Shown piece by piece: positions 832 to 57,242 of a DNA stretch of 58,302 nucleotides. A program made the position numbers and the translations under genes. The notes below the pieces were generated by a model. That model saw only the letters and a list, made by a program, of their open reading frames with translations, made no database searches and was not told where the DNA came from. The DNA comes from a virus. Every line of letters starts with the position of its first letter. The first letter of the stretch is position 1. The stretch spans positions 1 through 58,302 of IMG/VR virus record IMGVR_UViG_3300024999_000119; one strand, given 5' to 3'.

Positions 832-873
832 TTTTTTAACCTTTATGATTAGATTAAGTGAGGATAAAATAAA

Positions 874-909
874 AAAGCTATATCGTAATTTTATTCACAA
901 TATAGCTTT
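874..909 (-). terminator. rho-independent terminator, leftward
   Basis: A perfect 10-bp inverted repeat, AAAGCTATAT (874-883) and ATATAGCTTT (900-909), encloses a 16-base loop. Reading leftward the stem is followed by a run of T (complement of the A-run at 871-876). It lies 25 bases past the stop of the 132-residue gene. Confidence 0.65.
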
Positions 910-933
910 CATTATTTATTATTTAGGAATCTT

Positions 934-1332
934 TTATTTCATTAGACTCAATAAACTATCTAATGTACTAGCATCAATAGCATTATCTACATCAACTCTT
1001 TCACTTATTTTCACTAAATTGATATAGCTTTTCATTTCACTACCATCTGCATTAAACTTTCCAGAATTATTCTTTCCACTAATAACTTGATAACCTTTTG
1101 CTGTTACATAATCACCAGTTCCAGTAAGATCCTTTGTCAATATTTCAATAGCATCTGTTAATTCATGCACATTACTGGCAAGTCTATATCTTGGTTGACT
1201 CAATTGCACAACCTCTCCAGTTTCTTTATTAACATATTCTGACTGAAATTTTAACTTTCTATTTCCTTTTTCTGCTTCTGTTATCATTGCTGATAAAATA
1301 CTCTCAACTTTTGTTTTTAATTCTTGATTCAT
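934..1332 (-). CDS. paralogous early protein A, 132 aa, unknown function
   Basis: The start at 1332 has an AGGAG site. The protein is clearly related to the one at 2479-2865: both have KVES-L-AMI near the start, a QPRY-LA motif in the middle, then YQVI, NNS-KFN-DGSEMKS and INL-KISERV towards the end. I do not recognise the family. Each copy has the same 21-base element 48-55 bases upstream. With its own promoter region and terminator it forms a single-gene unit. The position and shared control suggest an early host-takeover or regulatory role; this is inference only. Confidence 0.65.
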   Translation of the reverse strand: MNQELKTKVESILSAMITEAEKGNRKLKFQSEYVNKETGEVVQLSQPRYRLASNVHELTDAIEILTKDLTGTGDYVTAKGYQVISGKNNSGKFNADGSEMKSYINLVKISERVDVDNAIDASTLDSLLSLMK

Positions 1333-1386
1333 GACTATTTCTCCTATAGATATTATATAAAATTATTTAAGATGCTTGAATCCCAA

Positions 1387-1459
1387 ACACCAAAAAAGGA
1401 CATACCCAAACCAAAAGGAAAAGAAATACCTGAAAGAGGACAACACCAAAAGACAAGAG
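1387..1459 (-). promoter_or_regulatory. shared early control element, copy A
   Basis: Read towards the 934-1332 gene, this has a TTGGTGT box (rc of 1435-1459 region) and then a 21-base box (1387-1407) whose core is GGGTATGT followed by a T-run and GGTGT. The 21-base box matches copy B (2913-2933) at 19 of 21 positions and copy C (3206-3226) at 17 of 21. A TATAAT-like sequence (rc of 1352-1357) lies between the element and the gene. It may be a promoter or operator, possibly for the phage-encoded polymerase. The rest of 1333-1856 holds no gene that I can support. Confidence 0.65.
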
Positions 1460-1776
1460 AAAAAGATAAGTCTGTGTTGTATTGTTTATAATGTCAACTA
1501 ATTTTGATGTGTATGAATAGGTATATGTGTGTGTATGGATAGATGAGAAAGATGAGCTAAATGAGAATATTCGATGTAAAATATCAAATACAATGTATCA
1601 AATACTATATATAGGGAAGAGATAAAAGAGATGTTCTCAGAACCTTAAAGGAAGGGTAAAAAAGATTAGAATATGAGCTAAAAATAAATCTTTTTTTAGG
1701 GTAAAATTAAATTAACTGCACTCTAGGAGAAAGTTATTTTGTAAATACTGCTAATTATGGATAGTTATATCTTAAC

Positions 1777-1805
1777 TTGACTATGTTTATAGTTATTCTT
1801 ATATT
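1777..1805 (+). promoter_or_regulatory. sigma70-type promoter for the RepL-like gene
   Basis: TTGACT (1777-1782) and TATATT (1800-1805) are separated by exactly 17 bases, each 5 of 6 to consensus. The predicted start is near 1812, leaving a short leader before the AAAGGAG site and the ATG at 1857. Confidence 0.6.
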
Positions 1806-1856
1806 ACTGTATAAAAATTGAAATTAAATGTAAACAACTATAAAAGGAGTAAAGTT

Positions 1857-2195
1857 ATGTTAGAATATGCAGGGAAGAAAGGAATGCTAATATATCCAGA
1901 GAATTTATTGAATATTATTGGAGCTAATTTAGATAGTAAGATTACAGCTTTAATGATAATCTTATTGAATTGCGATTCAGATGGTAAAGTTAAAACTAGT
2001 AAAATAAATAGAATTATAAGTGAAACTTTGAGTGTCGATATTGATTATGTATCTAGAATAATTATGACTTTGAATAAAGAAGGTTATTTAGAAAGATTAG
2101 GAAGAGGAAGTTACATAGTTAATCCTTATCTATTTTCTAATAGGAAAAAGAGTATGGAGAACAGATATAACTTTAATGAATTGTTTGAAGAATGA
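1857..2195 (+). CDS. RepL-like replication initiator / winged-helix protein, 112 aa
   Basis: The ATG at 1857 follows AAAAGGAG at a good distance; the frame is open upstream but without a site. The protein ends in a winged-helix region (about residues 55-100) with the pattern VDIDYVSRIIMTLNKEGYLE then LGRGSYIVNPYLF. This is the signature of the RepL family of plasmid initiator and maintenance proteins. A second protein with the same C-terminal motif is at 19589-20047. In RepL plasmids the protein acts at an origin within or near its own gene. The alternative is a transcription regulator of the same fold. It stands alone behind its own promoter and ends at a hairpin. Confidence 0.65.
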   Translation: MLEYAGKKGMLIYPENLLNIIGANLDSKITALMIILLNCDSDGKVKTSKINRIISETLSVDIDYVSRIIMTLNKEGYLERLGRGSYIVNPYLFSNRKKSMENRYNFNELFEE

Positions 2196-2270
2196 TTAGA
2201 TTGAATAGAGTCATATCTAGATGATTAGAGTGGATAGAGTTTGTACAATATATAACTGTAATAAATAAAA

Positions 2271-2294
2271 AAAGAGAATATTTCTATTCTCTTT
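2271..2294. terminator. bidirectional hairpin terminator
   Basis: Perfect 10-bp stem AAAGAGAATA/TATTCTCTTT with a 4-base loop. An A-run on the left gives a T-run leftward. It separates the rightward RepL-like gene from the leftward paralogue B. The 183 bases between 2295 and 2478 hold no convincing gene. Confidence 0.6.
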
Positions 2295-2478
2295 AATATT
2301 ATTCTATAGTACAATCACATCCCTTATTAGCATATTTCTTTGCCAATGTTAATGCAGTCCATTCTGATATACCTATCATTCTCATAATAAGCATACCTTT
2401 AAAGTATATTTTAATACTCATTTTAGTATTCCTTAGTTTGATTAAATGAATATGCTCCCAATTAAGGGAGCATTATAA

Positions 2479-2865
2479 TTATTGCATTAGTTTAGCTAAT
2501 TCATCTAAATCAGTATCACTAACAACAGAATCTGCATTAACTCTTTCGCTAATCTTTATTAGATTAATAAAAGACTTCATTTCAGACCCATCTTCATTAA
2601 ATTTAGCTGAATTGTTTACTGCTTTAATTACTTGGTAATCACCAGCAGTAATGTATATATTAGTACCAGATAATGAATCTGTTAACATACTAATAGCATC
2701 AACCAATATAGCTTGTCTAGTAGCTAAGCCATATCTTGGTTGATTTAAGATTACTTCTTTGCCATTATCATCTATATAAGATAATTGTGGCTTTAATGAT
2801 TTAATCTTTGTTGCTTCAGCTATCATCGCTACTAACAATGACTCAACTTTTTCTTTAAGTTCCAT
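2479..2865 (-). CDS. paralogous early protein B, 128 aa, unknown function
   Basis: Start at 2865 with a GGAG site. It is the paralogue of the 132-residue protein at 934-1332: same length class, same order of motifs (KVES, NQPRYGLA, YQVI, NNSAKFNEDGSEMKS, KISERV), with the N-terminal third and the last 15 residues most divergent. No known family is recognised and there is no signal peptide or membrane segment. The shared control element upstream (2913-2981) implies co-expression. Two diverged copies kept side by side suggest either dosage or two targets. Confidence 0.65.
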   Translation of the reverse strand: MELKEKVESLLVAMIAEATKIKSLKPQLSYIDDNGKEVILNQPRYGLATRQAILVDAISMLTDSLSGTNIYITAGDYQVIKAVNNSAKFNEDGSEMKSFINLIKISERVNADSVVSDTDLDELAKLMQ

Positions 2866-2912
2866 ATCGAAACTCTCCTATAATAATAAATAATAATGTG
2901 TATGCCTTTCAT

Positions 2913-2981
2913 ACACTAAAAAAGAACATACCCAATTAGATATAAACTACATAATTAAAAGAGGACACCATAAAAGAAGAG
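2913..2981 (-). promoter_or_regulatory. shared early control element, copy B
   Basis: The 21-base box is at 2913-2933 (ACATACCC core on the plus strand) and the upstream GAGGACACCA-type box at 2961-2981. Oriented towards the 2479-2865 gene it reads TGGTGTCCTCTTT, then GGGTATGT plus a T-run, with TATTAT sequences nearer the gene. Nothing coding is seen in 2866-3257, which holds this element, a direct repeat and copy C. Confidence 0.65.
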
Positions 2982-3023
2982 GGGGGATAGGGAAGATGAT
3001 GATGATGAGGATATGGAGAACTA

Positions 3024-3084
3024 CTTCCTCATATTTTGACAATTTTTTTGAAACTATTCTATCTCCTTACATTTTGACAATTTT
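3024..3084. repeat. two-copy direct repeat, period 38
   Basis: ATTTTGACAATTTT occurs at 3033-3046 and again at 3071-3084, and the similarity extends about nine bases upstream of each copy (CTCAT / CTTAC). Each holds a TTGACA-like hexamer, but no good -10 box follows at 17 bases. They may be paired binding sites in the control region between copies B and C. Confidence 0.45.
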
Positions 3085-3171
3085 CTATAAACATTTGCCT
3101 TAAATCATAAAATTTTTTTATAAATTTTTTACAAATATTTAGGGATATACTTCGGTTTTGCCTTCGGGTTT

Positions 3172-3226
3172 CTTGTTTCTTTTTGGTGTCTTTGCTCTCC
3201 GGTATGGGTATGTTTTTTCTTGCTGT
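3172..3226 (+). promoter_or_regulatory. shared early control element, copy C
   Basis: TTTTTGGTGTC (about 3180-3190) is followed by the 21-base box at 3206-3226 (GGGTATGT, T-run, GCTGT). It points rightward at the RadC-like gene, the first gene of the long early operon. The two boxes are about 20 bases closer together than in copy A. Confidence 0.6.
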
Positions 3227-3257
3227 TTTAAATGAATAATAATTAATATGGAGATCT

Positions 3258-3686
3258 ATGAGAGAAATTATTTTTAAGTATCGGAACAAAAAGGAGGGGA
3301 ATGTTAAAGCAAATGAGGAAATGGTATTAAAGAAGTTCGGTTATATATTTAATGGTTCTTTGAAAGAGATATTATTAGTGTTATATGTTAATAGTAAAGG
3401 AGAGATATTTGAATATGAGACTATTGCTACTGGAGGGAGTGGTGAATTAAGTGTATATGTTAGTGATATATTTAGAGGAGCTATATTTAATGGTGCTGAT
3501 GGTATTATATTGGTACATAATCATCCTGCAGGATATTTAGAATTTAGTGAAACTGATTTAAGATTTATGAAATTGTTAATAGAACAGTCTAGTTTATTAG
3601 GTATTACTATAATAGATTCTATGGTAATAGCAGATAATAAGATTATTAGTATAACAGATAGTGCTAAAAAGAAAAAGGAAGAGTAA
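3258..3686 (+). CDS. RadC-like JAB-domain protein, 142 aa
   Basis: The JAB/MPN metal site is visible: VHNHPAGYLEFSETD (H-x-H-P-x-G then S-x-x-D), preceded by a glutamate in the EYETIATGG strand. It matches the C-terminal domain of RadC-family proteins and lacks the helix-hairpin-helix N-terminus of chromosomal RadC. The role of the family is poorly understood; stand-alone JAB proteins are common in phages and mobile elements. The start at 3258 has GGAG six bases ahead. It is the first gene of the rightward operon and lies under control element C. Confidence 0.75.
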   Translation: MREIIFKYRNKKEGNVKANEEMVLKKFGYIFNGSLKEILLVLYVNSKGEIFEYETIATGGSGELSVYVSDIFRGAIFNGADGIILVHNHPAGYLEFSETDLRFMKLLIEQSSLLGITIIDSMVIADNKIISITDSAKKKKEE

Positions 3687-3687
3687 A

Positions 3688-3948
3688 ATGAGTGATTCTG
3701 GATATTATCCAATAGGAGCAGAGAATGATGAACATGCTCCATATAATAAAGAAGATAAAGTGGCAATAAAATGCCCACATTGTTCAAACGATGATTTAGA
3801 AACAATACAAATTAGATGTAGAGTTGAATTGAAAGGTAAATCAGTCAAATTATGGGTTATATTATATAGCTATTTAGATGTTATTGGAGAAGATGAACTT
3901 TATGATGCTGATGAACTGTATTGTTCTAAATGTAATAATTTCTTTTAA
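3688..3948 (+). CDS. zinc-ribbon protein, 86 aa
   Basis: The start at 3688 is one base past the RadC-like stop and has an AAGGAAGAG site. A CPHC pair near residue 29 and a CSKC pair near the C-terminus would bind one zinc. The spacing and surrounding residues (IKCP-C, KLWV-L, Y-DV, CxxC, F) match the 61-residue protein at 4281-4466, so the two are paralogues. No specific function is recognised. Confidence 0.6.
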   Translation: MSDSGYYPIGAENDEHAPYNKEDKVAIKCPHCSNDDLETIQIRCRVELKGKSVKLWVILYSYLDVIGEDELYDADELYCSKCNNFF

Positions 3949-4280: not shown

Positions 4281-4466
4281 ATGGAAGATATAAAATGTCC
4301 TTATTGTGGGAATAGCAGATTATCAAATATGGAAGCTAAGTTATGGGTCAATTTAGGGACATATTCTGCTGATGTTGAAAATTATTTAGATGAAGAAGAA
4401 GAAATATTTTGTATGGAATGTGGTCAAATATTCAAATTAAGAGAAGGAAAACAAAATGAAAATTAA
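4281..4466 (+). CDS. zinc-ribbon protein, 61 aa
   Basis: CPYC at residue 6 and CMEC near residue 46 form a probable zinc ribbon. It is a shorter paralogue of the protein at 3688-3948, sharing IKCP-C, KLWVNLGTYS-DV and the acidic stretch before the second CxxC. The start is two bases past the previous stop. The 3' end overlaps the next gene by 11 bases. Confidence 0.55.
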   Translation: MEDIKCPYCGNSRLSNMEAKLWVNLGTYSADVENYLDEEEEIFCMECGQIFKLREGKQNEN

Positions 4467-12350: not shown

Positions 12351-12358
12351 GCTCTATA

Positions 12359-12432
12359 AAGCTCTACAATCAATTATAATGTTAAACCTATCTAAATGTA
12401 TATGTAATAGATATTATTTGATTGTAGAGCTT
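12359..12432. other. long hairpin (15-bp perfect stem), candidate structured RNA
   Basis: AAGCTCTACAATCAA (12359-12373) and TTGATTGTAGAGCTT (12418-12432) are perfectly complementary. The 44-base loop holds further pairable sequence (ATAAT/ATTAT, TATCT/AGATA). It sits alone between two genes. It has no T-run and is longer than a typical terminator. Candidates are an mRNA-processing site, a small RNA or a mobile hairpin. Confidence 0.6.
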
Positions 12433-12458
12433 GTTAGACAGCTTAAATAGGAGGATAT

Positions 12459-17540: not shown

Positions 17541-17969
17541 TTGAAGAATAGAAATTTAGATAATGTAGATGATTGGGGCACACCTAATAAATTTTATGAT
17601 GAACTTAAAAAAGAATTTAATTTTGATTTTGATCCTTGCCCACTCCAGCATAATTTAGCATTATGGGATGGATTAGAAATTGAATGGACGGAACGTAACT
17701 TTATAAATCCACCATATTCAAGAATATTAAAAGAAAAGTTTATCAATAAAGCAGTAGAAGAAAGCAAAAAAGGTAAGCTATGTGTAATGCTATTGCCTGT
17801 TAGCAATAGTACTAAAATATTTCATGAAGTAATTATGCCAAATGCAAATGAGATTAGGTTTGTTAGGGGTAGATTAAAATTCAAAGGTTTTAATACTTTT
17901 GGTCAATTTGTTACCGACAAAGTTGGCATGCATGATAGTATGGTAGTTATTTTTGATGGTCGTATTTAA
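17541..17969 (+). CDS. phage Dam-type DNA adenine methyltransferase, 142 aa
   Basis: DDWGTPNKFYDEL at the start and NFINPPYSR (motif IV, NPPY) near residue 55, ending in HDSMVVIFDGR, match the short phage family of DNA N6-adenine methylases. The start is a TTG at 17541 after GGAGATAAGT; no in-frame ATG precedes the conserved N-terminus. It probably protects phage DNA from restriction or marks packaging. A second NPPF methylase is at 33746-34270. No restriction partner is seen. Confidence 0.7.
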   Translation: MKNRNLDNVDDWGTPNKFYDELKKEFNFDFDPCPLQHNLALWDGLEIEWTERNFINPPYSRILKEKFINKAVEESKKGKLCVMLLPVSNSTKIFHEVIMPNANEIRFVRGRLKFKGFNTFGQFVTDKVGMHDSMVVIFDGRI

Positions 17970-18989: not shown

Positions 18990-19067
18990 GTTTTAAGGTA
19001 TCTACAATTAATTATTATTTAAAAGACATATAAACTTATAGGTTAAGTATTAAAGTGTCTTAGAAAC
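18990..19067 (+). repeat. conserved hairpin element, copy 1 (inverted copy at 57111-57174)
   Basis: GTTTTAAGGTAT (18990-19001) pairs with GTGTCTTAGAAAC (19055-19067) through 12 pairs with one bulge and GU pairs. TATTAAAGTGTCTTAGAA (19048-19065) is repeated exactly at 57157-57174. The reverse complement of the 57-kb copy also aligns without gaps over CATATAAACTTAT (19027-19039), 12 spacer bases and AAAGTGTCTTA. The substitutions keep the stem. It lies in a gene-free stretch before a small membrane-protein gene. Confidence 0.6.
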
Positions 19068-19083
19068 GATTATAAGGAGAATT

Positions 19084-19588: not shown

Positions 19589-20047
19589 ATGGATAATTTA
19601 AGCATAATCAATACTTCTAGTGGAGAAATTATAGGAAGCTATACACCCAAATTTAGCATGTCGCATATGGAGTTTGTTTTATTTTTTGGTAAAAATTTAG
19701 CTATGCTTGGGAAAGCAAATCCTTCAAAGAAAGAAATTATTCTTGCTAGCATAATTTCAAAAATGGATGGCGATAATGTTGTTTATATTCTTAAAAATTT
19801 TAGAATGGAATTATCGAAAAAACTGGAGATAAATCCTTCTTATGTTGGTCGTGTAGTTGATGAATTAATAGAAAAACAAATTTTATATAAGATAGGGAGA
19901 GGAGTCTATATTGTTAATCCTTATATTTATGGGAAAGGTAATGTCAAAAATATTGCTAAATTGAGATGGGAATTTGAAGCTATATTTAAAAATGATACTG
20001 TCGAAATGACTCATTCTGTAAAACGAACATATAAAGAAAAAGTATAA
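19589..20047 (+). CDS. RepL-like replication initiator / winged-helix protein, 152 aa
   Basis: Residues about 75-120 hold NPSYVGRVVDELIEKQILYK then IGRGVYIVNPYIYG, the same winged-helix plus NPY ending as in the gene at 1857-2195. The N-terminal ~60 residues differ and have a strand-turn-helix start. RepL proteins initiate plasmid replication; in a phage the protein may start replication or act as a switch regulator. It has its own promoter and palindromes upstream and leads the second rightward unit. Start at 19589 with GGAGAAAT. Confidence 0.65.
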   Translation: MDNLSIINTSSGEIIGSYTPKFSMSHMEFVLFFGKNLAMLGKANPSKKEIILASIISKMDGDNVVYILKNFRMELSKKLEINPSYVGRVVDELIEKQILYKIGRGVYIVNPYIYGKGNVKNIAKLRWEFEAIFKNDTVEMTHSVKRTYKEKV

Positions 20048-21150: not shown

Positions 21151-21151
21151 T

Positions 21152-21180
21152 TTGCATTATATTATATTTAAATATATGTT
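21152..21180 (+). promoter_or_regulatory. candidate promoter of the virion operon
   Basis: TTGCAT (21152-21157) and TATGTT (21175-21180) with a 17-base spacer, just ahead of the portal leader. It is a moderate match to sigma70 consensus and the only good candidate before the structural genes. Confidence 0.4.
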
Positions 21181-21203
21181 TGCGATAACATAGGAGAATT
21201 AAT

Positions 21204-37281: not shown

Positions 37282-37721
37282 TGCTATTATTTAAACATAA
37301 TGTAGCTAGCACAAAAGAATTTGAGAGATTAGAAAGAAAGATTGATAGAAAAATTAAAGTTATTGAATCTGTAACTGCTAATAGTTCTACAACCAATTCT
37401 ATATCTTCCAATTTAAGCACTCTAGGAAGCTCTACAAGCTCATCAAATGCCATAAGGGTATCAAACGTTAGCTCTTCACCTTATAGTGTCTTAGATAGCG
37501 ATAATGTGATATTATGCAATACAAATACAAAAGATATAACAATCAATTTACCTTTGATATTTGTAGTAAAAGAATTGGTTATAAAAAAGATAAGTGATAA
37601 TTATACTGTTATAGTTAAACCATATTATGGAAATAAAATAGATGAATTAGACTCAGTATCTATAACAGCAAAATCATCTATAAAAATAGTTTCTTATGGG
37701 ACTAATTGGTGGATAATATGA
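37281..37721 (+). CDS. tail appendage protein with fibre-tip domain, 146 aa
   Basis: An N-terminal basic coil (KEFERLERKIDRKIKVIE), a serine-rich linker (residues 35-60) and a C-terminal beta domain with YSVLDSDNVILCNTNTKDIT, INLP, LVIKKISDNYTVIVKP and GTNWWII. This is the well-known small phage fibre/appendage domain that ends in a W-x-I strand. Adjacent to tail hub and structural genes. Confidence 0.6.
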   Translation: MLLFKHNVASTKEFERLERKIDRKIKVIESVTANSSTTNSISSNLSTLGSSTSSSNAIRVSNVSSSPYSVLDSDNVILCNTNTKDITINLPLIFVVKELVIKKISDNYTVIVKPYYGNKIDELDSVSITAKSSIKIVSYGTNWWII

Positions 37722-39403
37722 GTTATATAGAAAGACTTCAAATAGGAGAAGTCTCAAATAAGAATTCTACATCTGCTTTATTGAAAGCTAATGGAGTTTT
37801 TACTGGTAAATGGGAAGATGTATCTAATTATAATTCTGTTATAATAGGAATTAAAGTAGATAAGAATAGTGCAACAGATGGACTATCTATCCAATGGAGT
37901 TCTAATGGTACTACTATGTGTGATTCTGATAGTTATACTATACTTGCTAATATAGGAAAAGTATTCACGTTTACACCAGCAAGAAAGTATATTAGAGTTG
38001 TATATACAAATGGTACTGTAGATTTAACTTCTTGTGGTATTCAAACTATATATAAACAAGGTGGTATTAAAGCATCATCACATAGAATTAATGATGCTAT
38101 TGTAGCAGAAGATGATGCAGAATTAGTTAAGTCTGTTTTAACTGGAATGAATGATAAAGGATATTTTGATAATGCAAAGATGTCTAATAAAGGTAATCTA
38201 AAAGTTAGTCTAGATGAATATGGAGATACTCCTTCGATAGATCCATTTGATAGATTAAGAGTATCAACACCATATACAATATTTGATTCTAAACAATTGC
38301 ATGATTCTCAACCTTTATTTTGGGATGAAGAAACAAGTGCAGGACCATCTACACATATTGCTGTTGATGCTTGTACAAGAATGGCAGTTAGTGCTACACC
38401 TGGAGAATATGCTGTTAGACAAACAAAACAAAGATTTAATTATCAACCTGGAAAAGGAAGTCTAATATTATTGACGTATTATGGTGAACAAGTAGATGGC
38501 ATTAGGAAAAGATTAGGTATTTTTGACGGTACAAGTGCAGACTATCTAATACCAAATAATGGGATATTCTTTGAAACAGATGGTACATTATCTTGGAATA
38601 TTTGCAAGAATGGGACTATAACAGAAAGTGTATCTCAATCTAATTGGAATGTAGATAAATTAGATGGTACTGGAGTTAGTGGAGTAACTTATAATGCTAA
38701 TTCAGCTCAAATAGCATTGATAGATTTTGAATGGTTAGGAGTTGGTAGAGTTAGAGTAGGATTTGTTATTGATGGTATAATTAGATATGTACATTATTTT
38801 AATCATGCTAATGATACATCATTTGACAGTGTTTATATGTCAACACCAAACTTACCATTAAGATATTCTATTGAAAATTTAACTGGAGAATATGACGATA
38901 CATTTGATCATATATGTTCAACTGTTATAAGCGAAGGTGGATTAGAAGAAACTGGTATATTGAGAAGTATAGATAATGGTTCAACTCATTTGAATGCTGA
39001 TGTTGTCGGGACTACTTATGCTTTATTAGGAATTAAGTTAAAAGCATTATATAACGATATTACAGTTACACCAAAGAAAATATCATTATTAAGTTTAACT
39101 AATGATGGATTTAAATGGTCATTGAAATTGAATCCTGTAGTTGCTGGTACATTCACATATTCTGATTTAACTTATAGTGCAGTACAATATGCTATTGGAG
39201 TTACTGCTAATACTGTTACTGGTGGATTAGATATAAGTAGTGGTTATGTTAGTGTTGCTAGTGGAGTTACAGAAGATTTAACAACAGCATTAAGAATGGG
39301 AAGTACAATAAGTGGTAGTATCGATAGTTTAGTATTATGTGTTACTCCACTTTCTGCTAATGCTGATATATTAGGAAGTTTAACTTTTAGAGAATTATTA
39401 TAA
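37718..39403 (+). CDS. virion structural protein, widespread tail family, 561 aa
   Basis: ATG 37718 overlaps the previous stop (ATGA). The central region with DPFDRLRVSTP, RQTKQRFNYQPGKGSLIL, IDFEWLGVGRVRVGFVIDG and MSTPNLPLRYSIEN belongs to a virion protein family found in many podoviruses and large phages. The C-terminal part is a beta-rich repeat domain. Probable tail or baseplate-like component with receptor or assembly role. Confidence 0.65.
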   Translation: MSYIERLQIGEVSNKNSTSALLKANGVFTGKWEDVSNYNSVIIGIKVDKNSATDGLSIQWSSNGTTMCDSDSYTILANIGKVFTFTPARKYIRVVYTNGTVDLTSCGIQTIYKQGGIKASSHRINDAIVAEDDAELVKSVLTGMNDKGYFDNAKMSNKGNLKVSLDEYGDTPSIDPFDRLRVSTPYTIFDSKQLHDSQPLFWDEETSAGPSTHIAVDACTRMAVSATPGEYAVRQTKQRFNYQPGKGSLILLTYYGEQVDGIRKRLGIFDGTSADYLIPNNGIFFETDGTLSWNICKNGTITESVSQSNWNVDKLDGTGVSGVTYNANSAQIALIDFEWLGVGRVRVGFVIDGIIRYVHYFNHANDTSFDSVYMSTPNLPLRYSIENLTGEYDDTFDHICSTVISEGGLEETGILRSIDNGSTHLNADVVGTTYALLGIKLKALYNDITVTPKKISLLSLTNDGFKWSLKLNPVVAGTFTYSDLTYSAVQYAIGVTANTVTGGLDISSGYVSVASGVTEDLTTALRMGSTISGSIDSLVLCVTPLSANADILGSLTFRELL

Positions 39404-41526: not shown

Positions 41527-44500
41527 ATGAGTGATTTAAGAAATGATATTTTTTCTTTATTAAAAGAAAAGAAAGTTTTGAAAAGTGATTATTCTATTGA
41601 TACATTTAAAGAGAAGTTATCTTCATCAGAGAATACTGATTTAATATATGATGTTTTGGGTGGTGGTACAATTCCTAAAGAAGAGTTTTATCATTTAGTT
41701 AATCCAGAATCTAGTCAAGATGCTATTGCACAAAGACACAATACTCCATTAGAAGGAATGAATTGGTTTCTTCAAGCTGCTACTTATATTGGTGATAATG
41801 TTGTTGCTGGTATAGAGAAGGTATCTGGTGCTTCAATTAATCCAGGTTCAGCAGATAGAGCTTCTGATATAAATCAACATTTTGCTATGGCAACTGAAGG
41901 AATGTTTAAGAACTCTTGGGATTATGCTAAAACTGTTGGTTTAACTGTAGTGCGAGATAGTTTTGATAGTCCCTTTACCATATTAGATAAAGCTTTAGGA
42001 ATAGAGAAAAAACAAACAGCTAATAAAGATGAATCAAAAATTATGGTTGAAAAAGAATTAGCTAATTCTTATGAAAACATACATAACACTAATACTAAAA
42101 TTAGAAATGAATATATTGCTACTGGAAAGATAGATCCTAAATCTACTAGTATAATGGCTAGTTTAATGGATTCTGCTCCTGCTACTGTAGCAAGTCTTGC
42201 ATTAAGTTACTTTACAAAGAGTCCTAAAGCTTCTATGGCAATGTTTATGGTTGAAAGTGGTGGTAGAACTGGTGCAGACTTTTATGCTGAAACTGCAAAG
42301 AGAAAAGAAGATGGTTCTTTGATACCAAATACTGGTAATGTTGAACATGGTATCTTTGGTACTCATATAGGTATTATTGCTGGTTTAGTAGAAGGTGGTA
42401 CTGGTTTTGAGCATTATGCTGCTAAATTAGGTACTAAACTTGCTGGTAAACAGATTGCTGAAGCTACTGCTGGTATTACAAAGAATGCAATGCTTAAGAA
42501 GATGGCTTATAATAACTTAAAAGATTATGCATTAAATTCTGTTGGTGAAGGTTTAGAAGAGGTAGTACAAGGTGGATTAGAGCAATGGGGAAAGAACTAT
42601 CTTGATTTAAGAAATGGGTATGATCTCAATCAATTAAAAGATGGGTTCTTACAGGGAGCATTTGGTGGTTTAATATTAGGTGGAGGAATGCAAACTGTAT
42701 CTTTTGCTAGTGACTACAAAAAAACAAAAGCAATACAAGAAACAGTAGAAAAAGTATTAGATAAAAAAGAAAAGTTAAAACAAGCATTAAAGACTGACAA
42801 AAATATATCTCCAGAAGAGAAAAAGAAATTAGAAGATAAACTTAAAGAAGAACAAAGACTCTTAAAGTTGTTATCAGAAGCTTCCCCAGAAGAGTTTGGA
42901 ATGCATGCTAGTAATTTAGTCCATACTGTTACGTCTTCAATGGAGATTATGAAAAGGAATTCTGAAGCATATACTGCTTTTATGCAACATAAAACTAATT
43001 TATATAATGCAGAGATAGAAAAAGGTTATAATGAAAATACTTATACTAATTTAATGGAATCAGAAGAGGAAGGTAGATTAGCAAAGTTATCTGCTGAAAG
43101 TAGCAAAAGATTTAGAACATTAACAGAAAAGTTTAGAGAAGAAAGAAAGAATGATGAAGAGTTTAAGAAACTTAGTGATAAAGAACAGAATGAAGTTATT
43201 AATGCATTAGCACATACACATTTATTAAATGGTACTGATTCTGCTGAATATAAAAAGTTATCTGAAAAAGCTAAAGAATTAAAATCAATTAAAGATAAGA
43301 AACAAGAGAAGAAAGATTTAACTCCAGATGATAAAATTGAGATAATGAAGTTAGGAAAAGAATTGACTAAAATTAGTCAAGAAGCATTTGATTTATTTAA
43401 TCCTATACATCACGAAATGTTATCACAAGGTTTAACAGATGCTAATATTCTTAAATATAGTACAAAAGAAGAGATAGATAATGCTCAACAGCAAATAGAT
43501 GTATATAATGAAAATCAGAAAAGAGTACCTACTATAAAAGAAGATATTAAACCAGAAGTGATGGTTAACAAAACTGTTGATTTATCAAAAGTTTTGGAAA
43601 GTTCTAATCCAAAAGTAAATAAGACTAAACCTGAACTTCAAAAAGAAGCTAAAGATTTAGGTATTGTACCAGAGAAGAAAAACAAAGTAGAATTACAAGA
43701 AGCTATAGATAATAAAAAGAATGAAATTCAATCTAATATTTATAATGCTGGTGATGAAGAACAAATAGTTAACCCAGAGGTTACATCTAATGAAGAAGGG
43801 ACTATTACATTAAGCGATGATCAATTAAACCAATTGCAGAGTTTAATGGATGCAGAAAAGAATAAATCTAATACTAAAATAGATGGTTCTGAATTTGGTG
43901 AAGATGGTGAAGGTAATAAACCTATATCTAAAACAGATAAACCACAAGATGTATTTGAAGAATCTGATTCTGAATTTATTGAAAGAAGAAGACAATATGC
44001 TAGGCAAGAAGTAATTGATGGTAAAGGTATTTATGCTGTTATAGGAGATAATACATACGTTTCTATTGATAATAGATTTACAGTTAACTCTAAGACTGGT
44101 GAATTGATAAAAGATAAAAAGTTATTAGAAGAAATAAAAGCCAAGGGAAAGAGATATGAAGCTAAAGATAAATCAGTAGATACTCAAAATACTTCTTCTG
44201 ATGCTGTTGAAATTATAACAAATATTTTGTCAAAAGAAACATGGAATGAAGCTGCTACTTGTAGTGGAACAGCATGTTATGATGTTAGTGATAAAATTAT
44301 AAGCGTTTTATCTAATAATAACATTAAAGCTGTTAAAATGGATGTTAATGCTCAACAGTTAGATAAAAATGGAAATCCTGCATCTAAAACTGGTGATCAT
44401 AGATTAACAGTTATCGAATATAATGGTGAATTTTATATAGCAGAAATACCACAACCAGCATATTTAACATATGATACTAAAAATGGAACTATTGCTTTTA

Positions 44501-47500
44501 AAAAAGGAATAGAACTGAAATCTCTTAAACCAATAGTTTATCCTTTTTCTGAATGGATAAATAGGAATAAACCTGACAATGTATATTATCCTGAAATAGA
44601 AGGAATAGAAAGAAATATTGAGAACATAAAACAATATATTCCATTGTTAGAAAGAAGAGTGTCCGAAAGATTAGCAGAAGTTCAAAATTCAAATGGGAAA
44701 CTTCCTTTTATAGTTAAAAAATATAATAAAGCTAAAGATGAGCTAGATAGAGCTTTAAATGCTCTACAATCGGATAATACTTCTAACCTTATACAAAGTA
44801 TGGGTAAGGAGGAGAAAGTGTCACTACAAGGCTCTATGGACGTTATATATACTTCTGTAGGTGGTCATTTGATGGAGATTCAAAGTAATCTACATGAATT
44901 GAAAGATGGTGATGTTTTAACAGCAGAAAAACTACCAAATGATATAGGTGCAACAAATATAAAGACTGGACTTGTTTATCCTTATTTTCTAAGAATTGTA
45001 GGACAGAATGGTAAAAATTATGGTGGTATTCCTTTTGGTTCTGTTGCAGATAAAGAAATATCAGATATGATTGACAATGGAAAAGAAGTACAGATACATG
45101 TTGTTAAATCTAAACTTAGTTCTTTTGATTTTACTTATAGTGCTAAAGAATCTATAGTTCCAATAGAAAATCCAATTAGTGATTTGAATTTTAAGACTAT
45201 TGCTGATTATGCTTCATCTTTAGCTGAACTTCAAGATGTCAATCCTAATTTAGTGAATTTAATTAAAACTTCTTTAGGTAATGTTCAAGTTGTTTCTGCT
45301 ACTCCAGAAACTGTTATCAACAGCAATGGTGATTTAATGGGTACTAGAAAAGCATTATTAAGCAAAGATAATGGAGTTTATACTATATATGTTAATATGG
45401 AAAAGACTAATGGCAGAGAAGGTAATTCCATTATACACGAAGGATTACATAAATTCTTGAGAGATTCTTTAGATATAAAAGGGGTAGATAATAAAGGTAA
45501 TAGCACATACAATAAAGAATTTGATTTAGATTTAAGAGCAATGGTTAAAGAGATTGAAAAACAAATATCTAATACTGAATTTTATAGAAAGAATAAAAGT
45601 GATTTAGATAGAATATTTGATTTAAATTCTTTTAGAAGATTAGGGTTAAAAGAAGATCAGATTGCTAATAGACAAGCTGAAGAGTTCTTAGCTCATGTAT
45701 TTTCCGGTACATCTTCTCTTAGAGGTTGGATGGAAAGAACTAGTGTTAATGTTGGAGAGGATTCAGATACATGGTTTGGAGCATTCAAGAGAATATTGTT
45801 AAAGATATTTAAGAAAAGAACAGATAGCTTTACTTATTTGAATTATTTAGAATCTATATTTGATTATAGATTAAATACTAATATAAGTGAAATTATGGGT
45901 GAAGTTAATGAGTCTTTAATGGAAGAAAGTAATGATGATTCTTTAACTGATATAGAAAAGATAAATAAGTCTGCTGAAACATTAGATAATCCACATGTTA
46001 TAGTAGATGCTGTTGGTATGATAGCTCCAAATGAATTAGATGCTATTGCTTATGTACAAACATTATCACAAGGTGAATTTGAATCTCAATTGTTTTCAAA
46101 TGAAGATTGGTTAAAATCATCTTCTTTTAGTTTTGAAAGTGAAATAGAAAATAATCCTGGAAAGAGCCATATAACATTAGATAAGTTTAGAAAACACTTA
46201 GCTGTTAATATGTGGAGAAGAGCTAATTCAATGATGAGAGTTCCTACTATAAGACTTAAAATGCATGGTAAAGGAGAGAAGAGATTCTTAACTGTACAAG
46301 AATTAGGTGTTATACATAAAGATAAGAATAATGTTATTAATTATGGATGGACTGAAAAGAATAAGTTACAAGAAAGAAATAAACAAATAGGTAGAATATT
46401 AGGTCAGAATACTGAATTAGTTTATATAGATGCAGTGGAGTTTTATAATGGTAGTTTTGGTGATGTATCTAAACAAGATAATAAATTATTAGCAGAGAAT
46501 TTATATAATAAAGGATATTTATATCTAGGTAGATTTGCTGATAAGAATACATTTGCTGCTATTAAATTAGAAAACCTAGAAGAAGCTAAAGTTAAATTAG
46601 CACAATTAAATTTATTATATACACAAAAAGCATCACAATGTTTTCAACAATTATTTCAAGAATTCCAAGAAGGTAAAAGCAAATACCCAATTAGTTTAGA
46701 GGAAGTTCAGAAAGTAACTAATACTGCTGGTGATATTACAAATGTTGCTAGAGCTTTAGTTGAAGATTTTAAATTAGGTGCTACTATTGATGAAGATGGT
46801 AATCTTAATTCTGTATTATATAATCCTAATTTTTCTGATACTTTTGATTTAATTAAGATATTCAAAAGAACATTAGATGTTGTTGAACAAACTGCAACTC
46901 CTACAGAAATAGATGAAGCTATAGATAAATTAGATGAAAAGAGTGGCATAGTAGTTAATGGTAAAGGAGAAGTTGATGTTAGAACTGCAATATTTGATGC
47001 CAAGAATAGTAGTGCAAAACAAACTGTTACTATTGGTGATAGAGAGATAGAATTTAATTTAATGGATATATTGATAAATGAATTAGGTACTGAAACTACA
47101 GATGGTGTTGTTATATCAAGAAGAGATGGATTCAATAAGTTTTATAGAGAAATACATGCAGAACTATATGATACTCCAGTTAAAGCTATAATAACTAATA
47201 ATAGTAAAGGAGATTTTTCTACTCCATTTTTAGGTAAGATGGCTATTCATACAACTAATTCAGATGCATTAGAAGCTTGGATGAGAGAAAACAATATAGC
47301 TTTGCTTATGTCTTCTTCTGCTGTTAAAGTCAACTTAGATTTAAACAAGATAAATGATAATGGAGAGAAAGGTTCAATAGGGTATGCTAATAGTGACTTG
47401 TTAGGAATAGCACAAACATTTAATATACCATTAAACAATATTTATCGTCAAGGACAAAAGAAAGGTGTAAAAGATAATGCTAAAGGATTGGCTCAATCAT

Positions 47501-50500
47501 TTACATCTAATTTAACTGTAGGAGAGAATGAGATATTCTTTGATAATGGTGGTATTAAACAATTCATTGATGAATTGCTCTCTTCTTTAGTTGAAAGTTT
47601 TGAAAAGGATATGGGCAATTTAGATGAAACTAAACTAATTAAAGAACTAATTAGACTATCTAGAGAGTCAACTAATCCACTGACTTCATCTCTTGCTAAT
47701 ATTGCTGTTCAATCTGTATTACTTGAAGGAGATATTAATTTAATAAATAAATTAAATGATATTAAAGATGTTGATAATGTTGTTAAACAAGATAACTATT
47801 TAGAAATAACCAAACTATTGAAAAAAAGGGGGATGGAAACATCTGGTATATTCTATTCACCAATGTTTTCTGATTTTGTATCTTCTTATATTAAAGAAAG
47901 TTTATCTAAAATATATACATTCAAAGCTCCAGCTTCTTGGGTTGTATTGTCTCCAGATTTAGGTTTCTTAGAAGAAACTAATATTCAAGGAATATTTGAT
48001 CATATTCAAAAAGAAAAATTTCCATTAAGAAAGTCTATTGATAAATTAAATAATACTATCAAAGAATTAAATGATGAAAAAGAGAAGTTAGCTAGTTATT
48101 TAGATGGTAGTAAATCTGATAAATTCATTTTAGATGCTATAGATGATATAAATGAATCTATTAAGAAGAATGAAGGATGGTTAGAAAAAACTTCCAAAGT
48201 TGAAGATGTTGATAAAATGAATAAAGAAACTTGGAAAGAATTAGAAAAGATTATAGATGTTAAAAATGGTAGATTAAAAGAAGGTTATGGTTTAATATCT
48301 AAAGAATATTATGAGAAGTTTCCAATTCTAAAAAGAATGAATAAAGCGATAGTTACTGCTGTTCCTTCGGATGGTATATCAGCACAACAAGGTGTATATC
48401 TATTTCCTATTGAGACTGGAGATGAAAATATAATTAAATTGAATTCAGAACATACACAATCAAAAGTAGGAAAAGATTTTGATATTGATGTTATGAATAT
48501 ATTGTTTCCAGATGCAAGATATTTTTCTAATGATGCTTTTAATAAATATTTTGATTCTATAAATGGTTCTAATAAGAATTTAGATAAAGTATCAGCAAAG
48601 GTATATGGCAAAGTATTAGGTAAAAAGTTTAAGAATGAAGATGGTAGCATAGATCTAAAAGATTTATATTCTATGAAGACTAGATTAGAGTTTATGCAAA
48701 AGTTATTTGGAGAGAAGAAACAATCAAAAGAAGTTGAAGATTTATTGTTTGGAAGAAAAGTATTCTCTTTGATACATGATTCTTCTCCACTTCTTGATAA
48801 GTTTCAGAAATTGATTGGTATTGCAATCAATATGAGAAAAGTATTAACTATTAAAAGTGAATTAGGAATGCAATCTCAAATTGGTGGTGTAGATGTAGGA
48901 ACTGGTGATATAACACTAGCATATCTTGCATTAATGGTTTACACTAATGATATGGTTGATATTCCTACTAATACTAATGGATTATTCTATTCTTTGACTC
49001 CAGCTAAACTATATGCAAAGATTTATGGTATCTCTAAAGAATCTGCTGAAATAGCTTATGCTGTTGATAATGCGTTATTTAGATATGCTTATCAAATATC
49101 TTCTCAAAGGAATGTAGATTCTTTTACTGATGATTATTCTTTAAGTGATACTATCAAATACATTAAAAATCAAAAGAAGATTAATACTGCAATTAGCAAT
49201 AGTGATTTATCTACTCTTACTTCTTTTGTAATGAAAGAAGTAGCAGAAAGTTTAGATGAAAAACTAACTGCAGAACAAGAGAATTTGGTATATGAATATT
49301 TAGATAATGCTAGATTTTCTAATAGTGTTATGGATTCTGCTGCTCTTAAATCTGTCGAATTAATAGATACATCTATAATAAGAAACTTTGATGTTTCTCC
49401 TAAGCAAAATCAATCTTGGAATAGAGATATTATGTATGCATTCGCTAATAACTCAAAACATATTCCAATAGAAGTTAGAGAAATGATTGCTCTTATTAAT
49501 GAAAAAACTAAGAAATTAGTTGATGAGAAGAGTCCTTATTTAGAAGGATATAATTTCCTTGCATCTGAATTAGTGAAGACTACAGACCAAGAGTATAATG
49601 CTAAAATAGATAGAGCTAAAGCAATAAACACAAAGGTTGAATTAGCTATGCTAACTAGTATAGATGATACATTGGATTGGGCTAGATGGGTAGTAGCAGC
49701 ATATCTTAATCCAGTATCTATGACCAATAATCAATATGCCAATAATAAAGATGGTAAGATAAATGTAATCAAATTGAATATGAAAGCTAATAGATTTGGT
49801 ATTCAACAAGCTCTTCCTGGATTAATGTTAAAAGCTATTAATAGAGAATTAGTACCAAATGAGAATGCTAAAGTAGGACAATCAGTTTCTGTTAGAATTG
49901 ATGGTGTTACTATAAAATTTGAATTAACTAAATACAATAAGATTTCAATAACTTATGAAGGTAAAGCAGTAAAGCATTATTATAGAAATACATTGGAATT
50001 ACAAGAATCTGCTAGAAAAGGTGATAGAATAGCTAATCTTTTATTGACTAAAGCTGATACAGTAGCATTAAAGAATGAATATGCTTTAAGTAATCTAATA
50101 GATTTTAAGAAATCAACTTCTGGTGAAGATAAGTTTGAATTAGCTTCTAATTATTTAAATAAATTGATTAAAGAACGTGCTATCGACAGAGATGGTGCTA
50201 CTTTATTGTTCATATCTTTAGTTGGTGGTACTTCTGAAGGTAGTTCCTTTATGTTCAATTTAGACCATGAAAAAATAAATGAGAATGATTCTCCTACAAA
50301 CAAAACTTTATTGAGATTAGCAGCGAATACAAGATATGGAAGAGACTTCTTACAAGCATTTGCATCTATTTCTACTGAATCATTTAATGATAGTGGAATA
50401 GGAACTTCTACAAGAGTATCTAGGTCAATACAAGAAAGTAATGATATAGAAGTATGGGAAGAAGATGGCAAAATAGATGAAGGTAATAAATATATTGCTG

Positions 50501-53500
50501 ATAATATTACAGTAAATAATTATGAAGATTTAGGAAGTTTTCTTAGAGAAGATTATATATATAATATTATCAGAGATTCAAAAGTATTTATTGATGATGA
50601 TAATCCTTTGTTTTCTGTATTTAATTTTAATACTGGTAATGAAGATGTTCTGACTGCTAATTCTGTATATAACAGCACAATATTTAGACCTATTAAATTT
50701 CCTAAAAATAGAGATAAAGTTAAATTGGAGAATTTGTATCTAACTAAGATGGAAGAAATCAATAAACTTCATAAGAGTATGGAAACAAACCAAATTGTTA
50801 TCAATAGAAACATATCTCTTAGATTAGATGCTGTTATGGATCATCCTAGTGGACTTGTAGCTAAAGCAGTCAACTTTATTACAAAGAGAAGACAACAGAA
50901 AATAGAGAAAGAAACTTTTACAAAGAATGTAATAAGATTAGTGGAAGAGAATCCTTTGAATATTTCTGTTAAAACTACATATAAAAATGGAATGTACAGT
51001 TACACATTTGCTCTAACTAACAGCAAAAAAGAAAGAGTATCTGACATAAATGAATCTGAATTAGAAAATGTTATTGGTAATGAAATAAATAAACTTAAAA
51101 ATCCTAAAGAGTACCATACAATGTTAGCTTCTATTGAATTTATGAAAATGAATGCATTAGAAGTCAGATATAAAACAAATTTATCTGGATTCATTGATAG
51201 GTATGTTAATTCTTATAGGAATTTCTCTCATAGTGAAATAGTAGAATCTATTGCTGAAAAGTATAGAAGAATAGTTTCTGCTAAACCATATAGTTATCCA
51301 CATTATTATACGAAAGAAGCAATATTAGAAGTTCTTAAAAAGAATGTTGATTCTAAGTATAAAAAGAATACTGAAGAAGAGAAAGCTAATTTAGTTAAGA
51401 AATTATTTGATAAATTAACTAGAGTTGGTGAATATTATAATGGTAATGATGTATTTGATAAAGATAAATTGTATATCCAAGATTCATTTGTACCACATCA
51501 ATTAGCATCAAATAAACTGTTTACTTCACTTAAAAGTGATTTAACTTCTTTATATTGGTTAGAATATGAAACAGAAGCTATAAATAGAGGACAAGATAAA
51601 ATAATTGTCAATAGAATGAAACAGCATTTTGCTATGAATGCTGGTTATACTATGTTATCAAAAGAGAATAAATCTATTTCTAAAGTTAAGAAAGATGATA
51701 TGATTAGCTTCTATACTTATGGTCAGAAATCAGATGAAAAAATAAACTTAATAGTAGAAAAGAAAACTGATAATGGAATTTTTGGTAAGATAGATAAAGA
51801 AGTATATCTCAATACTCTTAATATGAAAATCAAATATTATGATATGCTATTAGATAAAGGATATGATGTTATAGTAACTGAAGAATTATTATATTATTAC
51901 AAAGAGTTATATGCTAAAGGAATAATAAACATTCCAAATCCACCAAAATCTGGAAAAGATTTATTATATGCAGTCTCGTCAGGATTAAAGATTGAAGTAT
52001 CAGATGAACAATTATTAGGTAGTTATTTAACATCAAGAATATTTATAAAACAAAGAGATAGCAAAGGTAACTTTATAAATATTAAAGGTGTAGAATCAAC
52101 TAAAAAGAATACTATATGGGATAAATTAGCTACAATATGGTTAACTGCTATGAGTGGTAGTATATTGGGTACAATAGTACCTGCAATAAGCAATTACATT
52201 GATGGTTATTGGTCATTGATGAATACTTTAGGTAAAACTACTATGTTGAAAGCATCATTATATGGTGGTAAGTTATCTGATGTTAATTTAGTTAAAGCTG
52301 CAAAGAATATTATAAATGAACCTACATCTCAAGGTGGATTCAAAGAATATATGGAATTAGCTGATACTCCTATCAATAGTGTGAATATAGAAGATAGAAT
52401 GGAAGTTAAGAAGCTAATTAAAGCTCATGTTATTAGATATGCTCTTCAAGAAGGATTAGTATCTTTATCTTCATTAGAAAGTAAAGATAGAAGAGTGATG
52501 CAACAAATATTAGAGAATGGTGTACAGAGTGCTGATTTTGAAAAAGCATTAGCTATTCTAACTAAGATTACTGGTGTATTAACTAGTCCTTTTGCTAAAG
52601 CTGAACAAACTATAAGATTAAAAGCTGCATATTCATTTGCATTCAAAGCTATTGTATTGGATGGTAAAACTAATTCAAATCAAATTAGAACAGAGATAGA
52701 GAATGGTGTAGCATTGACTCAAGGTTTATATGGTCAATTATATCGTAGAACTCAAGAAAGACATTCTGCTGGTAAAGTTGCAATGCAATTCCATCAATAT
52801 ACAGCATTCCAAAAGATTGTGTTTAAGTCTGATAAAGAGTTAATGAAAGAATTGAATCAAACTTGGGCTAATATATGGAGAGTAGATGGTAAGAGTCCAA
52901 TAGCAGCATTCTTTAAAGGTGGTACAGTCAATGGTGAAATTAATATGGCTAGAACTAGAGCAAGAAGATATGCTTATGATTATACTATAGGTGTTGGATT
53001 GATGACATTGTTTCCAGGAATGAGAGTAGGTAATCCTTTAATAAGAGTATCTATAATGGCATTAAGAATGTTATTAACAGCATTAGTTAATGGTAACGAT
53101 CCAGAGCCTAAAGAAGTTAAATCTTTGTTATTTGCTTTTGTTTCTTTGTTTGCTGGTTTAGGAATTTCTCTTCCTACATTTATGGTTTATAATATTATAA
53201 ATGATGAAGATAATATTGTAGATTTACATCCTAGAGCAACATCAATAATGATGAATATATGGGATATGATTGATAGAGATACAGCTAAAAATAATAGAAG
53301 TGAAATATTGCAATCTAATAAAGATTGGGCTAAAGTTGAGAAATCATTTATATTTGGGTTCAATCTATTTGCAGCCAACTATTTCACTTATGGAACAAAA
53401 GAACAAGAAGATTGGGCTAGAAGGAACATAGTATCTAAAATTACATATCAATTTGAAGATATGCCTAAGAATACTATTTCAACTGTAGGAGAATTTGTTC

Positions 53501-57110: not shown

Positions 57111-57174
57111 TTTTAAGACACTTTCTCTTTCTACCCATAAGTTTATATGGATTTTATATTAAAGTGTCTTAGAA
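57111..57174 (-). repeat. conserved hairpin element, copy 2 (inverted relative to 18990-19067)
   Basis: TTTTAAGACACTTT (57111-57124) pairs with AAAGTGTCTTAGAA (57161-57174) over 14 bp with one GU. Its loop contains ATAAGTTTATATG (57137-57149), the reverse complement of the segment in copy 1, at the same distance from the arm. It follows the last virion gene. The 313-base gap 57062-57374 holds this element, a terminator and no gene. Confidence 0.6.
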
Positions 57175-57242
57175 GTGAAGATAGATGCCTTAAATGTGAT
57201 TCTGTAATACATATATAGATAAGATATGTTAAAGAATAAAAA

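Follow-up and report, generated by a model that had tools for sequence, protein, structure and literature searches.

The virion RNA polymerase of phage N4 is a T7-like enzyme, and a DNA hairpin is an essential element of its promoters. In Cellulophaga phage phi14:2 the early genes are reportedly transcribed by gp66, a crAss-like virion RNA polymerase (PDB 6VR4). Several groups of phages inject a two-barrel RNA polymerase, and among the published cases that we surveyed promoters have been assigned for P23-45 only. The virion polymerase of P23-45, gp96, is a two-barrel enzyme fused to a giant tape measure protein; the pre-early promoters assigned to it are AT-rich and share a conserved motif, with which 14 start sites have been mapped, and there are ChIP data (PMC10770324). 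Two-barrel polymerase families are often alike only around the DxDxD motif (PMC10770324). The early promoters of the N4 enzyme combine conserved bases with a small DNA hairpin (PMC4496689).

Here we analysed the whole of IMG/VR record IMGVR_UViG_3300024999_000119, a linear fragment of 58,302 bases (the window). We found that a 21-base element, box B, stands upstream of three genes and is itself preceded each time by a shorter box A (Table 1). The box set is a real regulatory element; the motif is new and the kind of element is already known. The reading that we prefer, with a confidence somewhat short of even, is that the boxes are early promoters read by an RNA polymerase of the phage itself, probably one carried in the virion.

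Results

The window has a GC content of 29% and no tRNA genes were found in its 58,302 bases. It encodes a P22-like portal (gene 21204), an SU10-like major capsid protein, a large terminase and a virion structural protein, along with a primase/helicase, a Sak4-like annealing protein and a Holliday junction resolvase. This suggests a bacterial virus that appears to be lytic and short-tailed. Genes run mainly leftward to the left of about 2.9 kb and almost all of them run rightward to the right of 3.26 kb. We call the three genes behind the boxes early by virtue of their position and the gene content, and the word is to be taken as presumptive throughout.

Table 1. Features of the window that bear on the boxes.
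Feature	Position	Strand	Description
Box B copy a	1387-1407	-	GGGTATGTCCTTTTTTGGTGT, upstream of gene 934-1332
Box B copy b	2913-2933	-	GGGTATGTTCTTTTTTAGTGT, upstream of gene 2479-2865
Box B copy c	3206-3226	+	GGGTATGTTTTTTCTTGCTGT, upstream of gene 3258-3686
Box A copy a	1443-1448	-	TGGTGT, extended TGGTGTTGTCCTCTTT; 41 nt upstream of box B, start to start
Box A copy b	2965-2970	-	TGGTGT, extended TGGTGTCCTCTTTT; 37 nt upstream of box B, start to start
Box A copy c	3184-3189	+	TGGTGT; 22 nt upstream of box B, start to start
Gene behind copy a	934-1332	-	132 aa, no assigned function; paralogue of 2479-2865
Gene behind copy b	2479-2865	-	128 aa, no assigned function; 56% protein identity to 934-1332 product
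Gene behind copy c	3258-3686	+	RadC-like JAB domain protein (PF04002, 4e-24)
Hairpin after T-run of box B copy a	1371-1391	-	GGTGTTTG-GGATT-CAAGCATC, 8 bp, includes G-U pairs
Hairpin/dyad at box B copy b	2898-2916	-	GTGTATG-AAAGG-CATACAC, perfect 7 bp
Terminator-like hairpin	873-910	-	behind gene 934-1332
Bidirectional terminator-like hairpin	2452-2473	.	behind gene 2479-2865
RepL-like wHTH protein	1857-2195	+	PF05732 0.0076, below cut-off; between elements; candidate regulator
Giant ORF	41527-53553	+	4008 aa; KVGKDFDID at aa about 2314-2322; candidate virion two-barrel RNA polymerase

An earlier sequence-only reading of this DNA had reported the three 21-mers, and on recomputation their positions and matches were as claimed, with 19 of 21 bases shared by copies a and b and 17 of 21 by a and c as well as by b and c. 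All three copies face their gene, the genes being divergently oriented and provided with strong ribosome-binding sites. From box B to the ATG we measured 54 nt (gene 934-1332), 47 nt (2479-2865) and 31 nt (3258-3686), so that the 32-55 bases given before were right within one base. The leaders end in AGGAG or GGAG and then the ATG of the three transcription units. When the best three-way 21-mer was sought in dinucleotide shuffles of the three 150-nt leaders (n = 1000), the sum of pairs was 41.5±1.5 with a maximum of 48, compared to 53 for the box B triple. A single 17/21 match is unexceptional, being reached in 65/1000 leader shuffles for a/c and in 22/1000 for b/c, and the signal therefore sits in the triple and in a/b. 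The case for box B is made by the triple together with the common orientation, the place before start codons and the upstream TGGTGT.

A weight matrix built from the three copies gives them scores of 31.5-35.2. The next-best site in the window scores 17.0, which is within the range of best scores from shuffled windows (up to 20.4). The proposed scan with the three-copy motif thus revealed no fourth copy in the 58-kb window and none in its coding sequence. Box B is also absent from the middle and structural genes, indicating that it is not a general promoter of the phage. Only 1.8% of strand-specific positions are intergenic, upstream and co-oriented, and all of the copies fall among these (6e-6 if random).

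The second, TGGTGTC-type box that had been described ahead of each 21-mer is likewise present all three times, always oriented as its box B. It is longer in a and b, which share GGTGT(TG)TCCTCTTT, and in c only TGGTGTC is clear. We found that the pattern TGGTGT-N10..40-GGGTATGT has exactly three matches in the window, all at these sites, where 0.01 are expected. TGGTGT taken alone is weaker evidence, as 43% of local shuffles yield some common 6-mer.

Copies a and b stand before paralogous genes and might be alike through duplication of gene and leader, with c a chance match; singly, the a/c and b/c matches are found in 2-7% of leader shuffles. We regard this as very improbable, and the shuffle, identity and A+B pair counts have already largely refuted it. 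The two boxes are 90% identical, more than the coding DNA (67.5%) and more than the flanks (57-65%, with about 59% for random sequence). Moreover the A+B pair recurs at c with its order unchanged, c leads the sites in the window other than a and b by 14 bits, and it precedes the unrelated RadC-like gene on the other strand. Since box B is 90% conserved while coding DNA stands at 67.5% and the remaining leader is near-random, the simplest account is that the box is held by selection.

With a terminator-like hairpin behind both of their minus-strand genes, copies a and b each seem to serve a unit of one gene. The RadC-like gene heads a long rightward gene block, and two small zinc-ribbon-like proteins are encoded directly behind it (3688-3948, CPHC...CSKC, and 4281-4466, CPYC...CMEC). 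Further hairpins overlap the end of the 21-mer in copy a (-8.1 kcal/mol, z -3.4) and the end of box B in copy b (-8.1 kcal/mol, z -5.0), and they may be part of a promoter, an attenuator or an operator. No stable hairpin was found at copy c (-0.3 kcal/mol), which indicates that the hairpin cannot be essential to a common mechanism. It is conceivable that each box acts in the RNA, where it and the hairpin after it would form a leader element controlling how the early messages are translated or attenuated. In a and b the T-run is followed by a hairpin of 7-8 bp, and although there are G-U pairs and an A-T to T-A exchange, pairing on the sense strand is retained, as this reading would have it. 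However, besides the lack of a stable hairpin at copy c, whole leaders fold no better than their shuffles (z -0.4, -0.7 and +1.5), the leaders have no Rfam match and box B is conserved in sequence, not in pairing. We therefore consider control at the RNA level improbable.

The three leaders were also examined for promoters of host type. None contains a sigma-70-type promoter (TTGACA-N16..18-TATAAT) above chance (p 0.39-0.62), in agreement with the earlier statement that no clear sigma70 boxes coincide with the elements. A Bacteroidota-type promoter (TTTG-N19..21-TAnnTTTG) is not above chance in them either (p 0.25, 0.995 and 0.90 for a, b and c). In the leader of portal gene 21204 we found TTTG-N20-TATGTTTG at 21151-21182, a 10/10 match to the Bacteroidota type (p 0.0018 from 4000 shuffles, before correction for the 18 regions examined). 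A 9/10 match is present in the leader of gene 19589. Presumed early genes that lack a host-type promoter and structural genes that have one make a pattern that resembles the phages with injected polymerases.

The hints as to the host conflict. The near-perfect promoter before the portal gene points to Bacteroidota. In contrast, a Shine-Dalgarno-like sequence precedes 47 of 62 genes of the window, and such heavy use speaks against that phylum, members of which are reported to be without Shine-Dalgarno sequences (PMC6847099).

The same leaders bear on whether the boxes are instead operator or activator sites, at which a DNA-binding protein of the phage would switch three host-polymerase promoters on or off. 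Two wHTH genes, 1857-2195 and 19589-20047 (PF05732 1.8e-5), encode RepL/MarR-like paralogues that are 32% identical; one lies between the elements, and both are candidate stage regulators. The second is located after a 331-nt gap with a Bacteroidota-like promoter, ahead of the structural block. Gene 1857 has no box and has a 10/12 sigma-70-like promoter. The distance between box A and box B varies, as it does for regulator sites, and the words GTGTATG and GGGTATG (GKGTATG) are enriched in two intergenic regions, with 7 found and 0.22 expected. The tight dyad GTGTATG-N5-CATACAC beside box b could belong to the same operator. Box B, however, is not a dyad and wHTH dimer sites usually are, a host-type promoter beside boxes b and c is not above chance, and the further, degenerate copies that seem to lie upstream of a and c are not significant, being accounted for by local composition. 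The operator reading is close because of the two paralogous wHTH proteins and the GKGTATG enrichment in both intergenic regions; we hold it to be unlikely but second only to early promoters.

A role in replication or genome handling was also considered, in which the RepL-like protein would bind the boxes as iterons of an origin around 2866-3257 and their placement before divergent genes would be incidental. Between the divergent genes, a 34-nt unit holding TTGACAATTTT occurs twice in tandem at 3021-3092, the copies being 79% alike, and an AT-rich tract (3093-3150) comes next; among the 2-kb steps only 1-2000 has a negative GC skew, all others being positive, and the RepL-like gene is nearby. 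The region 3021-3150 is a possible origin of replication. However, copy a lies 1.5 kb away in another intergenic region, and the copies face genes at short distance and are not clustered as iterons would be. That the boxes themselves serve replication is quite improbable.

If the boxes are promoters of a phage polymerase, the giant ORF is the candidate to encode it. This ORF is placed in the structural block, between structural genes and the terminase, and contains HTQSKVGKDFDIDVMNILFPDAR. A scan of viral contigs for KxGxDFDIDxMN yielded 14 loci, all of the form RIPTQ/RIPNQ...K.GxDFDIDKMN in long open frames, and an alignment of 6 of the 14 matches phi14:2 gp66 (PDB 6vr4) at 1.5e-78. We found that the giant ORF aligns with this six-locus family over 60 columns around the motif, at 32% identity and E 0.0012 with an hhalign probability of 19.6%. 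There AVPSDGISAQQGV...SKVGKDFDIDVMN is matched to RIPTQGMNSIE...GKAGSDFDIDKMN of the family. The lysine after DFDID, invariant in the six aligned relatives, is a valine in the giant ORF. The protein itself has no Pfam, PHROG or PDB match, and AlphaFold applied without an alignment to its polymerase region gave an unusable model (pLDDT 36). The motif and its context suggest that the giant ORF probably holds a two-barrel polymerase domain. The injected polymerase of the earlier proposal has thus gained a candidate, and its link to known enzymes consists of about 60 aligned residues at an hhalign probability of 20%.

We then looked for relatives, mostly by scans with short exact or near-exact peptide patterns, by which remoter relatives would be overlooked. 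IMG/VR, GTDB genomes, a phage collection and individual records yielded no relative of the early region. Scans of viral contigs with one protein at a time (RadC, the early protein of 128 aa, the terminase and the giant ORF) revealed no relative, an alignment of the two early paralogues had no match in viral or genome contigs, and the terminase had none in genome contigs. A scan of all IMG/VR viral contigs with the box motif gave 46 single, chance-like matches, many of them in coding-looking or high-GC DNA, with no second exact copy in the stretches examined; among 21 other records examined there was no close match. The structural protein 37706-39403 has many relatives, 54-58% identical, in otherwise unrelated viral contigs and is about 35% identical to proteins of cyanophage and HMO-2011. 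These contigs were rejected as relatives of the phage, as no other window gene of weight matches, which suggests that the protein is probably a horizontally exchanged module. The Dam-like methyltransferase at 17541-17969 (PF05869) is 64% identical to a product of one locus, L103, where the 17-mer box pattern also occurs once exactly, in what looks like a chance match.

Other repeats were observed in the window. A 38-nt repeat (76%) with ATTAAAGTGTCTTAGAA is present in two intergenic regions (19037-19074 and 57146-57183) and has no Rfam match; at about 57111-57174 it closes a 14-bp hairpin (-18.9 kcal/mol, z -3.8). A long inverted repeat, AAGCTCTACAATCAA...TTGATTGTAGAGCTT, occupies a gap between rightward genes at 12353-12438.

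Discussion

The sequence-only reading had proposed promoters or operators of immediate-early genes. The intergenic, oriented sites, the short leaders with Shine-Dalgarno sequences and the terminator-like hairpins fit that proposal; the choice between its two halves is less clear, as operators explain the data nearly as well. Under the promoter reading, the most likely reader of the boxes would be the two-barrel (DFDID-type) domain in the 41527-53553 protein. This giant protein would be packaged and would enter with the phage DNA. Its polymerase domain may recognise box B, GGGTATGTYYTTTYTT, perhaps aided by the upstream TGGTGT of box A, and transcription may start within or just after the T-run to give leaders of about 30-55 nt. 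Two leftward transcription units of one gene each would be expected, and a rightward one headed by the RadC-like gene. That the genes are early, that the giant protein is in the virion and acts as a polymerase, and that it recognises the boxes directly are all inferred. A box A spacing of 22-41 nt would be unusual for a polymerase promoter, and the known box copies are three, in a record that is a fragment.

A more specific form of the promoter reading would combine a two-box promoter of variable spacing (TGGTGT ... GGGTATGTYYTTTYTT) with a two-barrel virion RNA polymerase that reads it and has diverged very strongly, both belonging to an otherwise orphan lineage of short-tailed phages. Although we think this form doubtful, it would, if true, provide the first candidate promoter sequence for that branch of polymerases. 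Because the three-copy motif and the candidate polymerase occur in one record, recognition by the polymerase can be tested in vitro. Such a motif-polymerase pair would give a tool for annotating the early genes of comparable uncultured phages.

Comparison with known systems

N4 also has three early promoters, and in the window copies a and b have a small hairpin beside the conserved bases. An N4-type promoter was nevertheless rejected: a hairpin does not occur at every site, copy c being without a stable one, the loops of a and b are 5 nt long, and the motif of the giant ORF is of two-barrel type.

With phi14:2 this phage shares an early module apart from the structural module, and around DFDID its giant protein is similar to the family with a profile match to gp66. 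This similarity extends over about 60 residues of the giant ORF and no further. No copy of the box was found in the first half (first 50 kb) of the phi14:2 genome, and Shine-Dalgarno sequences were found for 3 of 30 sampled phi14:2 genes versus 47/62 in this phage.

P23-45 differs in its motif, which here is GGGTATGTYYTTTYTT with an upstream TGGTGT, and the three sites of this phage are known from sequence alone; the polymerase assignment is also much weaker here. As in P23-45, one conserved motif stands upstream of genes at the end presumed to be expressed first, a giant protein of the structural region carries a DxDxD-type polymerase motif, and host-type promoters are found only elsewhere.
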